A stretch of 48,527 nucleotides of DNA from Desulfurobacteriaceae bacterium (GCA_027075275.1 JALTBO010000098.1:14742-63268), one strand, 5' to 3'. Shown: positions 8,043 through 19,078, counted from the stretch's first letter. The notes: generated from the letters alone by a model not told the origin. Numbers and translations: made by a program.

Positions 8043-8285
8043 TTGAGAACCTATACAATTCGGCTGGACGACCGGTTCTTTGAGTTGCTTGAAGAACTTT
8101 CAAGGAAAACGAGAGCTCCCAAAAGTTCTGTTGTGAAGAGAGCTCTTCTTCTTTATAAACAAGAGCTTGAGAAAGAGGAAATGCTAAGGAATTTAATTGA
8201 ATCTGCTGAAGAACTTTCCAATGACCCTGAAAATCTGAAAGATATTGTAGAGTTAGAGGGAACGGTATCTGATGGGCTTGATTAG
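8043..8285 (+). CDS. Ribbon-helix-helix antitoxin
   Basis: RTYTIRLDDRFFELLEELSRKTRAPKSSVVKRAL RHH pattern; GGAGG upstream of TTG start. Confidence 0.85.
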   Translation: MRTYTIRLDDRFFELLEELSRKTRAPKSSVVKRALLLYKQELEKEEMLRNLIESAEELSNDPENLKDIVELEGTVSDGLD

Positions 8286-8622
8286 GGGAGGTATTTACTT
8301 AGCAAAACTCAGTCCTACAAAGGGAGCAGAACCTGGAAAGATAAGACCTGTAGTTATTGTTCAGAGGCAGGAAATTCTTGAAATATATCCTACTGTTCTT
8401 GTAGTTCCTTTAACCTCAAACTTAAAGGGTAAGTATCCTATGAGGCTTTTTATTAAAGCGAGGGAAAGACTTGAGAAAGATTCGGCTATTATGGTAGACC
8501 AGATGAGAGCCATTGACGTATCAAGGCTTATCCCGGATAGGATAGCTTCTCTTACGGTGGAAGAGATGGAGAAGTTGGAAAAAGCTATTTGCTTTTTTAT
8601 CGGATCTGATGACAGAATTTAA
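8272..8622 (+). CDS. MazF/PemK-family endoribonuclease toxin
   Basis: RGGIYLAKLSPTKGAEPGKIRPVVIVQ...VVPLTS...DQMRAIDVSRL; overlaps antitoxin ORF. Confidence 0.93.
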   Translation: MGLIRGGIYLAKLSPTKGAEPGKIRPVVIVQRQEILEIYPTVLVVPLTSNLKGKYPMRLFIKARERLEKDSAIMVDQMRAIDVSRLIPDRIASLTVEEMEKLEKAICFFIGSDDRI

Positions 8623-13370: not shown

Positions 13371-14813
13371 ATGAGGAGAGCTCTGCTTCTAACAACTGCC
13401 GTTCTACTCTCTACTTCCTTAGTTCCTGCAAGGGCTTCAGATCCAGAGGTTGAACAGCTGAAGCAGATGGTTGAACAGATGAGACAGGAGCTCCAGCAGG
13501 TTAAGGAGGAGAACAGGGAGCTCAAGCAGGAGGTTCAGATTTTAAGGAGTAAATTGGGGGGAGCTCCTGTAAGAGTGGGAAAGGGAGCTCCATCTTTTAA
13601 GAGCAAAACAGGAAAGGCTGTTGACTTCTACGGCTACTTCAAGATTGACGCTGCTTACTCAGACTCAAAGGCTGTTGGAAAGGACTTTATCCTCTTTGCC
13701 CTTCCAGAAAACTCAAAAGGCCCTGTTATTAACAGTGCATTCCCTTACCTGAAGCACAGCAACGATAACGACTTCAACATCAACTTCAAGCACAGCCGTT
13801 TTGGATTCCTCATAAGGACTAAAGAGGGAGACTACAACATACTTGGAAACTTTGAGTTTGACTTCTACGGTAATCTTGACGAGAACGATGATAACCCCAA
13901 CCACGCAGGCATCAGGGTAAGGAAGGCCTGGGTTCAGTTTGGAAAAGAGGACTGGAACGTAAGGGCCGGTCTTGATTGGATGCTCTTAACTCAGCTCTAC
14001 CCACATCTTTCAAACTTTCCCTCCGGTGCCATGATGGGTAACATCGGTTACCGTATTCCCCAGATAAGATTTACAAAGCTCTTCAAATTTGAGGAGAGCA
14101 AGTTAACTACACAGTTAGCTCTTGATAAGGTCTGGGGAGACCCTGACCCAACACTTAAACCCTGGATTGATACAGGTTCAAACTCCGGAAGGCCTGATGT
14201 TCAGGGAAGGCTGGCTTACGATTTCAACCTTGGGGGTGTGAAACTCCACGTTGGAGCTATAGGCCACGTTGGAAAGGAACAGGTCACCCTCTCTGATGGA
14301 AGTGAAAAAAACCTTGATACCTACTCTTACGGTCTGGAAGGAGCTGTTTCTCCAACCGGCTGGTTGACGATTTCTGGAAAGATCTGGAAGGGAAGGAACC
14401 TCGGAGGATGGTATACGGGCGGTGTAGGTCAGGGAGTTCTCTACGTTTACTCTGATGGAAAGGTTGATACGAAGTTAAAAGGTTATCCTGTTGACGCAAA
14501 AGAGATTGACGCTGAAGGTGGATGGGTAGAGGTGACCTTAAAGCCAGATCCCAAATGGGTTTTCCACTTAGGTTACGGTGTTGACAACCCGGATAACGAT
14601 GACCTTCAGTATAACGGCAAGTATCCCGTTCTTGCAAGGCTTAAAAACACAATGTACTACGCCAACGCCTTCTACAGGCTCACACACTCTTTAGGTTTTA
14701 TGGGAGAGTATTTAAGGGTTAAGACTGAATATCCAGATACAGATTTTGCCGGAGACTCCTACGGAGACGGAACGGTTAACAGGTTTCAGGGAAGCGTTCT
14801 CTACTTCTTTTAG
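13371..14813 (+). CDS. Outer-membrane porin-like beta-barrel with N-terminal coiled coil
   Basis: Signal peptide, heptad region EVEQLKQMVEQMRQELQQVKEENRELKQEVQILRSKL, beta-rich body ending SVLYFF. Confidence 0.85.
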   Translation: MRRALLLTTAVLLSTSLVPARASDPEVEQLKQMVEQMRQELQQVKEENRELKQEVQILRSKLGGAPVRVGKGAPSFKSKTGKAVDFYGYFKIDAAYSDSKAVGKDFILFALPENSKGPVINSAFPYLKHSNDNDFNINFKHSRFGFLIRTKEGDYNILGNFEFDFYGNLDENDDNPNHAGIRVRKAWVQFGKEDWNVRAGLDWMLLTQLYPHLSNFPSGAMMGNIGYRIPQIRFTKLFKFEESKLTTQLALDKVWGDPDPTLKPWIDTGSNSGRPDVQGRLAYDFNLGGVKLHVGAIGHVGKEQVTLSDGSEKNLDTYSYGLEGAVSPTGWLTISGKIWKGRNLGGWYTGGVGQGVLYVYSDGKVDTKLKGYPVDAKEIDAEGGWVEVTLKPDPKWVFHLGYGVDNPDNDDLQYNGKYPVLARLKNTMYYANAFYRLTHSLGFMGEYLRVKTEYPDTDFAGDSYGDGTVNRFQGSVLYFF

Positions 14814-14827
14814 GGGGGGCCTGGAGT

Positions 14828-15211
14828 ATGGAGGAGTGTTTCTGGAGGACCTGCCTCTACCTATCATCCGTTGATAGGGCAGGGGAGCTCCTTAAGTTTG
14901 ACCTTGGCAGGCGTATGAGGAGGCCATTCTTAACTTTAGGTAAATACACCTTTGGGAACTCCCTCATTGCCGTGTTTCTGACAGCTCAGGAGAGGAAGGG
15001 GAGGCCCTCTGTTAACATTGATAAGTGTGATAAATCTAAGTGCAAAGATTTCCACTGGAAGGAGAGGGCTTACGTTTATGAGAACAGGGGAAGGAGATAT
15101 CTCCTTATCCCTGTAGAGTTCCTGAAAGACGACGATGCGTTTAAGTTCTGCGGTTACTGTAGTATAGACAACTCTGAAGAGGTAAGGAAATGGGCAAGGG
15201 TGAGGGGTTAA
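14828..15211 (+). CDS. Small putative MazF/PemK-fold protein, first gene of the SAVED cassette
   Basis: RRPFLTLGKYTFGNSLIAVFLTAQERKGRPSVNI resembles RP-x-x-V...PLTS of PemK/MazF; CX4C and CX2C pairs; overlaps next ORF by 22 nt. Confidence 0.45.
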   Translation: MEECFWRTCLYLSSVDRAGELLKFDLGRRMRRPFLTLGKYTFGNSLIAVFLTAQERKGRPSVNIDKCDKSKCKDFHWKERAYVYENRGRRYLLIPVEFLKDDDAFKFCGYCSIDNSEEVRKWARVRG

Positions 15212-16164
15212 GGCTCTCTGAGTCTGAGTTCTTGGAACTCCTAAAAAAAAGGGAGGGGGTTCTGTGGGAAAGGCTGAAATCTCACCTCTCCAACTTCTTA
15301 AAGGATAAAGCCTGTCTGAGGAAGGTTATAGGGGATAAGACGTTAGACTCTCTGCTTTTGGAGGTTCTTGAGAGCCTGACTCCTCAGAAGGTTGGTAGAA
15401 GAGACCTCAACTACCTTCTGGAATCTGCCCTGTTTGACACGTACCTTGAGTCGGTAGCTCAAGACATAGTTTCAGGAAAGTGCAATGGGGAACTCTTCTG
15501 GCTCTTAAGCAGGGCTACAGGCTACATCAAAAAGGAGCTTTTAAGGGTAAAGAGGGAGAGTAAGGATACTTTTAGAAAACTCTGCTCATTTTTAGGAATT
15601 GATGAATCTCTTGAGGGGGAGGAACTCCAGTCTCTCCTCTTCCCCGTGGTGAAGGAGAAGCTCTCCCTCTTCATAGAGAGGGGCTACAGCAACTACATGA
15701 GGCCCCTCTACAGTGCCCTTAAGAACTGGCTCAAAGACCAGATAGAGGCCTCTCTGGCGGCGAAGAGGACTGAAGGGGTTAGGGAAATTCTTTCCCTTGA
15801 TGAATATCTAATGGGAAACGAAGAGGAAGGTGGCTTAATGGTAGAGGACGTTTTATCAGATGAGGATGTTCCTGAAGAGCCCATCAGGTTTATCTGGGTT
15901 GATGATGCAGTTGATGAGCTCTGCCAGGCACTCACCGAGGACGAGCAGAGGCTCCTCTGCTCCATTCTGAGGTGGGAGAACTGCGGGCTTTCGCTCTCTC
16001 AGGATGCTTACTACCAGAGGCGTTCCCGTTTTCAGAGAGGGAAACTGAAGAAGATCCTGAATGGCTGGAAGGATAGAGGTTTTACAGAAGAAGAGATACT
16101 GGAAATTCTTGATTCCTTCTCAGGGTCTGTTTGCAGACGGCTGTGTCAGAAAATTAAGGTTTAA
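15190..16164 (+). CDS. Divergent sigma-70-like protein (CalpS-like candidate)
   Basis: YMRPLYSALKNWLKDQIEAS...REILSLDEYLMGNEEEGGLMVEDVLSDEDVPEEPI followed by DELCQALTEDEQRLLCSIL..LSLSQDAYYQRRSRFQRGKLKKIL, a region 2 / region 4 layout. Confidence 0.55.
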   Translation: MGKGEGLRLSESEFLELLKKREGVLWERLKSHLSNFLKDKACLRKVIGDKTLDSLLLEVLESLTPQKVGRRDLNYLLESALFDTYLESVAQDIVSGKCNGELFWLLSRATGYIKKELLRVKRESKDTFRKLCSFLGIDESLEGEELQSLLFPVVKEKLSLFIERGYSNYMRPLYSALKNWLKDQIEASLAAKRTEGVREILSLDEYLMGNEEEGGLMVEDVLSDEDVPEEPIRFIWVDDAVDELCQALTEDEQRLLCSILRWENCGLSLSQDAYYQRRSRFQRGKLKKILNGWKDRGFTEEEILEILDSFSGSVCRRLCQKIKV

Positions 16165-16200
16165 GCCGTTATCCTTTTTGTGAGATCTCCGGAGGAGAAA

Positions 16201-17031
16201 ATGGGATTGATGAAATACTTAATTGATGATTACAGGCGTTGGGTTTCCGGTGAGGCTTATCGGGAACTTGGTGTTCGAGAGGGAGCTCCTGGTGGCAAGG
16301 TCAGGAAGCTCCGTCCAGAAGTTGGAGATATTTTTGCTCTCTACACAGGAACCCTGCCCCTTTACGTTATGGTTGTTGAGGAGGATGAAGAGTTCCCAAC
16401 TGCTGTAGTTGTTACTCCCCAGTACGAGTTTGCAGGGAAGGAGGACGTTATTTTTAAGTTTGATAACCCCGAGAGCTCCCGCTGGGCTGCAGTTAAAAGT
16501 CTGGTTTTTTCCATCTATAGACCCTTTATTTCTGCCTCCTTTTACCTTGGCAGACCCTCTGAGGAAGAGGTTGGAATAGTTCTTAAGGGTCTGAAGGGAG
16601 AAGAGGTTCCGGCGGGGAGAACTGGTATTGATACAGAGTATGCCAGGGAGTTCAGAGAAATAGAGAAAGAGAGAGTAAAGCCTTTCTTACTTGCAACTGT
16701 TTCAACTTTTACGGAAGAGGTGAGCTCTATTGCCCTGCCTGAGCCCTTTCTTCTGACCATTGAAGAGGCCGGCAAGGTTCCTATGGCTGCAGCTGCCAAA
16801 GAAAGGGTTGTTGATACGCCTTTTGGCTACGTGGTTGAAGAAGGGAACAACGTTACCCTTGTCTTCAAAGAGGAGATTGCAGGTAAGGTAGGGGTTATTA
16901 AAGTTCCTACAGATAGGGGAGACCTTCCCATCTACTACGGGGAGCTCCGTCCCATTGAGTTTGTCAACCTCCCTGAAAGGGTCAGGAAAGCCATGAAGAA
17001 CCTGAAAGTGGAGGTAGAGGGTGAAGTTTGA
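16201..17031 (+). CDS. CalpT-like candidate: MazF-like N-domain, Ala4 linker, C-domain
   Basis: GDIFALYTGTLPLYVMVVEEDEEFPTAVVVTPQYEFAGKEDVIF SH3-like pattern; PMAAAAKERVV linker; SD GGAGGAG before ATG 16201 (track start 16180 is GTG); position between sigma-like and Lon-SAVED genes. Confidence 0.5.
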   Translation: MGLMKYLIDDYRRWVSGEAYRELGVREGAPGGKVRKLRPEVGDIFALYTGTLPLYVMVVEEDEEFPTAVVVTPQYEFAGKEDVIFKFDNPESSRWAAVKSLVFSIYRPFISASFYLGRPSEEEVGIVLKGLKGEEVPAGRTGIDTEYAREFREIEKERVKPFLLATVSTFTEEVSSIALPEPFLLTIEEAGKVPMAAAAKERVVDTPFGYVVEEGNNVTLVFKEEIAGKVGVIKVPTDRGDLPIYYGELRPIEFVNLPERVRKAMKNLKVEVEGEV

Positions 17032-18445
17032 GGTTGAGGAGCTCCTCCGTTTGGGGAAGTTTTCAACGGCCTCTGAGCTCCTGAAGAGTAGGGGAAAGAA
17101 CCTTTCAGGGAAAGATATCGTCTCTCTTCTCAGCAGGGCTTTAGGGAAACCTCTCACTGAAGAGGAGGAACGGTTCTACTTTCTCCTTTTGAAGGAGCTC
17201 CTTTCCAGGCCCAACTGGAAGAAACTCCTCTCAGAGATTGCAGGGATTGGAGATAGGGAGTTTAAAAACTGGTACCTGTTCCGTTTTCCCGTTGTGAACG
17301 ACAGGGGAGAGGGAAGAATTGTAGAGGGTATTCTCATCAAACATACAGGGAAAGGGGGTAGAGTCCTCTTCGGTAAGAAGGTCGACCTGTCGAGGGTTGA
17401 GTCTGCAGCAGGTGAGGGTTTCTTCGTGGTTTTTGAGAGTGGGGAGTTTAAGGGAAACTCCTTTGAGGCTCCTCTCCTCTACACAGTCCTCTACGGTCCC
17501 GTTCCAGAGCCCTTTCTCCTTTCAGGGGTTTTAAAGGGGAACGGGTTTGAGGCCGATGAGGAGGAGGCAAAGAGGAGGCTTGCCCTGAGTGAGGGCAAGG
17601 TTCTCATATCCAGGTCCCGGGATATTTCAAGGCTCAGAGAACTCCTTGAAACGGATGAGGTTCAACTTCCCCTTTTAACTGTAAGGAAGAGTGGACAGCA
17701 GCTAAAACTCTTCTCCAAGGAAGTGTTTAAGGGCTGTAATTACGGTTTGGAGGAGCTGAAATCTTTAGGGCTGACCGATAGGGATTTAACTTTTCAACTC
17801 CCCTCAAACATTCCACCGGGGAACTGGATGGAGTACGTGGTCGGTTTCTCCAAAAAGTTGAGGAGGCTTTCAGATTTTGCCTCAAATCTTGGTAAGAGGT
17901 TCCGATTCCACCTCGGTTTTGACGGCCCTGCCTCCCTGTTTCTGGGTTTTGGTGTTGCAACGGGAATGGTTCCCTTCACTGTCTACCACTACAGGAAGGA
18001 GACTTCAGATTACGTGAGGGTAACCGATTGTACCAGGGACTACAAGGAGAGGACTGAAGAGTTTAGAGAGCTCCGTTTTAGTCTCCTTGAAGGGAAAATG
18101 GAAGAGGCCTGTATAGAGGTTAAGCTGGCTTCACACGAACCATTCTTCCCCAACTGCTCCAGCGTTTTAGAGGTTGAAATTAAGACAAAGAGGGGGAACA
18201 TAGAGCTGGAAAAGTTTGTAGATGTGGTGAGGGAACTCTACAGCTTCTTCAACCTGCTCTACGACAGGGGAGTTAGGAAGTTTAAGGTGATTTTGAGCGT
18301 TCCCGTTGTTGTTGGCTTTCTCCTTGGAACGGCCATTGGAAACTATTGGGACATTGAAGTTTATCAGTACTTTAAACCTGAGGAGAAGGTACTGCCTGTT
18401 TTAAACCTCAGGGAGATAGAAACCTTTGACCGGATTTCTATGTAG
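17021..18445 (+). CDS. Lon-like protease domain fused to SAVED domain (CalpL-like)
   Basis: GEGFFVVFESGEFKGNSFEAPLL...PFLLSGVLKGNGFEADEEEAKRRLALSEGKVLIS (Ser147/Lys184 spaced like a Lon dyad) and SAVED repeats FHLGFDGPASLFLGFGVATGMVPFTVYHY / VILSVPVVVGFLLGTAIGNYWDIEVYQY. Confidence 0.75.
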   Translation: MKFEVEELLRLGKFSTASELLKSRGKNLSGKDIVSLLSRALGKPLTEEEERFYFLLLKELLSRPNWKKLLSEIAGIGDREFKNWYLFRFPVVNDRGEGRIVEGILIKHTGKGGRVLFGKKVDLSRVESAAGEGFFVVFESGEFKGNSFEAPLLYTVLYGPVPEPFLLSGVLKGNGFEADEEEAKRRLALSEGKVLISRSRDISRLRELLETDEVQLPLLTVRKSGQQLKLFSKEVFKGCNYGLEELKSLGLTDRDLTFQLPSNIPPGNWMEYVVGFSKKLRRLSDFASNLGKRFRFHLGFDGPASLFLGFGVATGMVPFTVYHYRKETSDYVRVTDCTRDYKERTEEFRELRFSLLEGKMEEACIEVKLASHEPFFPNCSSVLEVEIKTKRGNIELEKFVDVVRELYSFFNLLYDRGVRKFKVILSVPVVVGFLLGTAIGNYWDIEVYQYFKPEEKVLPVLNLREIETFDRISM

Positions 18446-18454
18446 AGGAACTGA

Positions 18455-19078
18455 TTACCAGTTAATTTCCGGTCTTCTCTCAACTTCCTCTCCAAACTTC
18501 AGGTACTCCATCTTTGTAAAGCCAAAGAGTTTTCCTACAAGGCCTGAGGGGAACGTATCAAGGGAGATGTTGAACTCCTGAACGATGTTGTTGTAAGTGT
18601 ACCGAAGCCTTGCTATTTCATCCTCAACTTCCTGGATACTCCTGTTTAAGTCTTCTGCAAGGTCTGAAGTTTTGAGTTCAGGGTAGTTCTCAAATGTTGC
18701 AAGAACGTTTCCAAGGATTGCCCGGGATTCTGCTTCCGCTTTTTCAATTTCTTTCGGTGAACTGGTTTTGAAGATGGAGGTGCGGAGCTCCGTCACCTTC
18801 GTCAGCGTCTCCTTTTCAAAATTTGCATAGCTCCTAACAGACTCAACCAACTGACTTATAAGGTCTAACCTCTTTTTGAGGGCAACCTTTACCTGGTTCA
18901 GCGTAGCCTGTGCCCCGTTCTTTAAGGTCTGAAACCTGTTGTAGACAGAAATGGTGTACAGGATAACCAGAACGAAAACTCCTAAAATAATCAGTAAAAC
19001 TATCTTTCCCAACGTTTCCTCCTTATTCGGTTTACCTTCCGCCGGCTCCTCCGCCTCCGAAGCCCCCTCCGGAGCCAA
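18455..19078 (-). CDS. LemA family protein
   Basis: [53 protein letters not shown]. Confidence 0.93.

Follow-up and report, generated by a model that had tools for sequence, protein, structure and literature searches.

A predicted four-gene Calp signalling operon with a conserved PemK-like gene at a solo insertion site in a Desulfurobacteriaceae genome

A Calp-type operon between a porin gene and lemA

The 48,527-nucleotide (nt) stretch of Desulfurobacteriaceae bacterium DNA analysed here (JALTBO010000098.1:14742-63268; hereafter the window) carries at 14828-18445 four plus-strand open reading frames (ORFs), coupled by overlap or near-abutment, which very probably constitute a complete Calp signalling operon in the order P-calpS-calpT-calpL, homologous to the published Calp system. 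Calp is a bacterial antiviral alarm in which a nucleotide-activated protease frees a gene-switching factor by cutting away its inhibitor, and its cascade has been described as three proteins. We refer to the first to fourth ORFs and their products as P, S, T, and L (Table 1). All four frames are intact. The P and S ORFs overlap by 22 nt, the T and L ORFs by 11 nt, and a gap of 15 nt lies between S and T when T is counted from its GTG at 16180. T probably starts at ATG 16201, which would give a protein of 276 amino acids (aa); this codon is preceded by a Shine-Dalgarno-like ggaggag. With only 14 nt from the porin stop to P, there is little room for a promoter directly upstream of P, and no plus-strand sigma-70-type site turned up in a consensus scan.

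Table 1. Coordinates of the predicted Calp operon, its features, and its flanks in the window
Feature	Position	Strand	Basis and details
Gene P, PemK/MazF-like Cys4 protein, 127 aa	14828-15211	+	Family search; PADLOC C3a162; hhalign to PemK
P R32-P33, on the catalytic Arg loop (R-P) of PemK/MazF	14921-14926	+	Alignment; R 39/39, P 39/39
P T52, on the T of the PemK 'P-hydrophobic-T-S' strand	14981-14983	+	T 28/39, S 11/39
P C67, C72, C108, C111, predicted metal (zinc) site	15026-15160	+	38/38, 38/38, 38 + one His, 39/39
S, CalpS-like sigma factor, 324 aa	15190-16164	+	Family HMM; hhalign to sigma factors
N-terminal extension of S, ~110 aa	15190-15519	+	Family HMM comparison
T, CalpT-like anti-sigma factor and protease substrate	ORF 16180-17031 (GTG, 283 aa); ATG 16201-17031 (276 aa)	+	PADLOC, family profile
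Predicted CalpL cut site A-A/A (A204/A205), equivalent to CalpT A195/S196	16786-16794	+	CalpT10 start, alignment
L, CalpL-like Lon-SAVED protease, 474 aa, GTG start	17021-18445	+	Pfam, PADLOC, NCBIfam, phmmer, tree
Lon dyad S147 (17459-17461) and K184 (17570-17572) = CalpL S152/K193	17459-17572	+	Alignment; S 43/43, K 42/42
SAVED domain of L	17789-18376	+	NCBIfam SAVED; R339, K342, H372, S426 = CalpL R361, K364, H392, S451
Inserted segment, ~3.64 kb with exactly the four genes	14813-18455	.	blastn, junction sequences
Porin gene	13371-14813		Name from translation; no family match
lemA	18455-19078	-	

L joins a Lon domain with a Ser-Lys dyad to a C-terminal SAVED domain in which the ring-nuclease and cyclic tetra-adenylate (cA4)-binding residues are kept. 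It matches SAVED in Pfam (1.6e-7) and NCBIfam (3e-14), its residues 86-467 match PADLOC SAVED_LON_TM at 3.4e-60, and phmmer aligns it to crystallised CalpL (7qda) at 1.9e-19. An alignment of 44 homologues shows all six mechanistic residues of CalpL (S152, K193, R361, K364, H392, and S451) to be identical in L. Two of these, S152 and K193, are invariant in the alignment, and we take them to be the Lon catalytic dyad. PMC11417357 and PMC12751052 ascribe cA4-handling roles to R361 and H392 of CalpL, and describe a viral relative, AcrIII-2, that uses equivalents of R361, K364, and H392 together with a serine; the correspondence of that serine to CalpL S451 is our own assignment. In the CalpL tree, L branches as the sister of the remaining Desulfurobacteriaceae copies, with support of 100/99. 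A solitary CalpL-type SAVED domain resembling the published AcrIII-2 viral ring nuclease was also seen on a viral contig (L109, 3195-3956).

The features of a CalpT substrate, a C-terminal CalpT10 domain and a cleavage site, are present in T. The window protein matches PADLOC CRISPR-T (3e-5) and Unk_02 (6e-9), and a search with the T family profile recovers CalpT10, a fragment of solved structure (8b0u), at 1.4e-15. Since the CalpT10 chain in that structure begins at S196, the cut in CalpT is placed between A195 and S196; the P1 residue of the site is Ala in 32 of 41 T family members. The original prediction had given T a MazF/SH3-like N-domain. The call draws on the published similarity in fold between CalpT23 and MazF (PMC9704534); by sequence, the MazF-like N-domain of CalpT is not visible (0.8% in a profile comparison of T with PemK). 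At another locus (L079, 6737-8659), CalpT and CalpL parts occupy a single 640-aa frame, which could reflect either a real gene fusion accompanied by a deletion or an error of assembly.

Residues 112-319 of S match a CalpS family hidden Markov model (HMM) with 56 bits. Compared by hhalign with Aquificota sigma factors, the S family profile aligns over 144 columns spanning regions 2 and 4 (p 1.6e-5), with a score of 40.3, whereas the highest of 100 column shuffles reached 18.9. PADLOC 'HTH' matches 20 of the 24 S family members, the window copy not among them, and the best PDB profile match of the family is a sigma-H factor, though a weak one (0.057). By these comparisons S is predicted to be a divergent CalpS sigma factor. 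The idea that the N-terminal extension is a duplicated region 2 found no support, fragment scores being about equal to those of shuffled controls.

For the window copy it is established that the parts are homologous to those of Calp, that the residues of the active sites and the cut site are kept, and that the operon is conserved. L, T, and S are each assigned by sequence or profile, so that the homologous protease/sigma module originally proposed stands, as do its overlapping or near-abutting ORFs (from their coordinates), the Lon-like N-half and SAVED C-half of the 474-aa protein (from the Pfam, PADLOC, and phmmer matches), and the sigma region 2/region 4 layout of the 324-aa protein (from the profile comparison). 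Several observations weigh against this assignment. Residues 1-110 of S are unique to the window copy, matching nothing detectable in other CalpS proteins, and this copy also lacks a direct match to Pfam sigma models. The AlphaFold model of S has a predicted local distance difference test (pLDDT) score of 54 overall and ~85 for residues 241-320, being poor outside the C-terminal 90 residues, and Foldseek found nothing with it. For P, AlphaFold gave no usable fold (pLDDT 41), and PDB searches with the P family, or with its most PemK-like member, gave nothing. L lies on a long branch of the CalpL tree, with 1.5 changes per column, and this branch together with the CalpS extension may point to drift or decay of the operon. 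Finally, neither Cas10 (PF22335, palm2) nor a RAMP (PF03787) was found in the window's own genome (G000), a draft assembly of 136 contigs that is 87% complete. It is highly improbable that the cassette is a toxin-antitoxin or generic sigma/anti-sigma unit that is unrelated to Calp and only looks like it. The one point in favour of this reading is that three of the four proteins lack a direct Pfam match; the CalpL and CalpT homology, the kept cut site, and the gene order contradict it.

Gene P as a regular component of Calp operons

A gene-neighbourhood survey of the kind first suggested for Desulfurobacteriaceae was made across Aquificota and found conserved P-S-T-L neighbours. CalpL relatives are present in 61 of the 136 genomes searched. 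P lies directly upstream of S in 33/33 first-round loci with S and, once six further loci (L246-L251) and one Persephonella locus (L094) are counted, in all 40 Aquificota operons with CalpS. Because the four genes recur in an unchanged order in these 40 operons, the cassette is not a chance arrangement. In one genome (G100), residues 2-496 of the encoded CalpL are the same as in the crystallised protein, and on this evidence the genome is the reference Sulfurihydrogenibium or its equal; the gene order of its operon, with lengths in aa, is P(181)-S(244)-T(271)-L(496), and Cas10 follows ~2.5 kb downstream. The window order had been thought rearranged, with calpL first in the described operon, and this is ruled out by the reference operon, in which the order is the same. 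Nor is the 127-aa gene the addition it was taken for: P was found in every Aquificota operon with CalpS examined and is a regular, uncharacterised component of the Calp operon. No mention of gene P was found in the searched passages of the CalpL literature, a set to which the founding paper did not belong.

Beyond Aquificota, operons of Calditerrivibrio (L101) and Caldimicrobium (L105) also carry P, and recognisable P is absent from two Thermodesulfobacteriota operons (L097 and L102). In L102 (7752-11461), the S-T-L genes lie directly downstream of a hisH-like gene, named from its translation. Tandem duplicate P genes were observed at L078 7403-8340, L079 5159-6096, L090 6807-7744, and L246 3331-4265, all within one genus (g16) of family f3.

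Compared with the type III-associated Calp of Sulfurihydrogenibium sp. YO3AOP1, the window operon has the same L, T, and S components, cut site, and protease and ring-nuclease residues, and the same gene order, with P upstream of calpS in both. It differs in that it is not beside cas10 and in the 110-aa N-terminal extension of its CalpS. The operons of the Thermovibrio-like congeners G117 and G118 (Desulfurobacteriaceae) share its CalpL clade and gene order but lie at another site, ~4.5 kb from cas10, and their CalpL proteins are 35-36% identical to L.

No Pfam family fits the P members well, and no PF02452 match is listed for any single member, the window copy included. PADLOC C3a162, a model of 'unknown function', matches 7 of 26 P family members (best 2.3e-60), whereas window P alone reaches only 0.044. 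P was compared by hhalign with a profile of 18 PemK proteins of the same phylum, which gave a probability of 59-62%, p values of 8e-5 to 9e-5, and a score of about 31-32 over 73 columns; 150 column shuffles reached at most 14.8, against 30.8 for the real profile. This comparison supports the earlier MazF/PemK call for the gene. Against S, T, and L the P profile scored below 3% in each case, and the P and T profiles are unrelated. P is thus supported at the profile level as a PemK-like protein with the catalytic Arg and Thr/Ser, and we call it PemK-like rather than a PemK member because of the missing single-sequence PF02452 match. It shares the R-P and T-S type motifs with PemK/MazF toxins (PF02452), but has four added cysteines and sits in Calp operons, not with an antitoxin. 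The near-invariance of these cysteines suggests that P may bind a metal.

Two accounts of P deserve weighing. The four cysteines, the low overall conservation of the family, and the translational coupling to calpS would suit a zinc-ribbon protein without catalytic activity, a regulator or scaffold that has only the PemK barrel in common with the toxins and helps, for instance, by binding DNA, RNA, or CalpS. We give this account a substantial chance, if somewhat below an even one, as the kept residues are of the PemK catalytic type and go beyond those of the fold. Alternatively, P may be a MazF-type ribonuclease effector that is silenced by CalpT/CalpS and freed by the same cleavage, in which case Calp would combine transcription reprogramming with RNA cutting. 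The PemK-like profile, a catalytic-type Arg and Thr/Ser in 39/39 members, the partnership with CalpS in 40/40 Aquificota operons, and the tandem copies in several genomes are all consistent with such an effector. We nevertheless consider it rather unlikely: the predicted structure is not confident (pLDDT 41), Ser stands instead of Thr in 11/39 members, and the L097 and L102 operons imply that P is not strictly needed.

Insertion site and source of the signal

By blastn, colinearity of the window contig with congeners G119 (86% identity) and G116 (90%) runs up to 14812 and resumes at 18456. The flanks are ~26 nt apart in each of these congeners, and the spacer between them holds a GGGGAGGGTTCTCCCTCCC-type hairpin and no operon; in the window, the operon stands in place of this hairpin spacer, between the porin gene and lemA. 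By eye, neither a transposase gene inside the inserted segment nor an obvious repeat at its two junctions was noticed, and the queries used found no phage or plasmid carrier of the operon.

The window contains no CRISPR (clustered regularly interspaced short palindromic repeats), as originally noted. The draft genome has a complete type I-B operon, cas6-8b-7-5-3-4-1-2, on contig C24 (L133, 2657-10890), and a CRISPR array on contig C33 (L142, 1-540) whose repeat, GTTTTATCTGAACTAGTGGGATTTAAAC, is shared with the type I-B array in congener G117. No SMODS cyclase was found in the draft, and an origin of the signal in a cyclic oligonucleotide-based antiphage signalling system (CBASS) was rejected on this ground. 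Of the congeners, only G117 and G118, where Calp lies beside cas10, have RAMPs; G115, G116, and G119 lack them.

A link to a type III (Cas10) locus is usual for Calp but not structural, and it holds across the family. A strong Cas10 match lies within 15 kb of CalpL in 30 of the 61 CalpL-positive genomes and elsewhere in 20, leaving 11 with none; since some of these 11 do have RAMPs, a missing Cas10 can be due to assembly loss. A second CalpL-positive genome with neither strong Cas10 nor RAMP is G024 (99% complete), where the Calp operon lies beside feoB and glmS. In four closed genomes (G058, G036, G037, and G098) Calp is at least 140 kb from strong Cas10 matches, yet both are present, which makes it plausible that Calp acts in trans of type III. 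In G058 (L065, 3065-12975), a type I-B operon was observed to enclose P-S-T-L, with cas6 on one side and cas7-cas5-cas8b-cas3 on the other; Cas10 is 270 kb away.

Most likely, cA4 for the window operon is made by a type III complex that the 87%-complete draft does not include; otherwise the operon is an orphan. The latter case, in which the genome truly lacks type III and the operon answers another cyclic nucleotide, or none and is drifting, concerns the source of the signal and not the identity of the operon, and we judge it a real contender with slightly the poorer prospects. It is favoured by the lack of Cas10, RAMP, and SMODS cyclase in the assembly, by CRISPR repeats that belong to type I-B, by the position of the operon between housekeeping genes at a site that is empty in two congeners, by the RAMP-free G115, G116, and G119 and the nearly complete G024, and by the long branch of the window CalpL. 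However, the assembly is incomplete and split into 136 contigs, and CRISPR loci are prone to poor assembly. The catalytic residues are all kept and the four frames are intact, which argues against decay, Cas10 is present in most CalpL-positive genomes, and the four closed genomes hold distant Calp and Cas10 together.

Proposed mechanism and role of the fourth gene

The published Calp mechanism, including cA4, CalpL, and its ring-nuclease activity, was taken from PMC11417357 and PMC12751052. By analogy with this Sulfurihydrogenibium system, we infer that a cA4 alarm would bind the SAVED half of CalpL, which would then self-assemble. Its Lon half would cut CalpT at the kept Ala-Ala site, and the CalpT fragment would release the sigma factor CalpS, redirecting transcription. 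CalpL would then degrade cA4 through the kept ring-nuclease residues and reset the system. Our preferred guess for P is an RNA-binding or RNA-cutting partner that may be held or released by the CalpT/CalpS complex. A broader proposal would make Calp a four-component system, in which P is a metal-binding MazF-type ribonuclease or RNA-binding partner under CalpT/CalpS control and cleavage in response to cA4 sets off changes in transcription as well as at the RNA level, with the operon moved as a unit to non-CRISPR sites in lineages like that of the window, where it works in trans or without type III. Taken as a whole, this proposal is speculative and rather improbable.

Specialist interest lies in the fourth gene and in the solo setting, neither of which yet overturns the known Calp scheme. 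In 40/40 Aquificota operons, the reference included, calpS is coupled to a gene that bears a toxin-like catalytic signature; if P is active, the textbook scheme would be incomplete, and an in vitro system for Calp already exists. Here the inserted operon stands alone, in a genome where no CRISPR type beyond I-B is detectable, which raises the question of whether Calp is driven other than by a resident Cas10.

Elsewhere in the window, at 8043-8622 on the plus strand, lies a canonical type II toxin-antitoxin pair, composed of a ribbon-helix-helix antitoxin (8043-8285) and a PemK toxin (8272-8622), which is colinear in G119 and G117.

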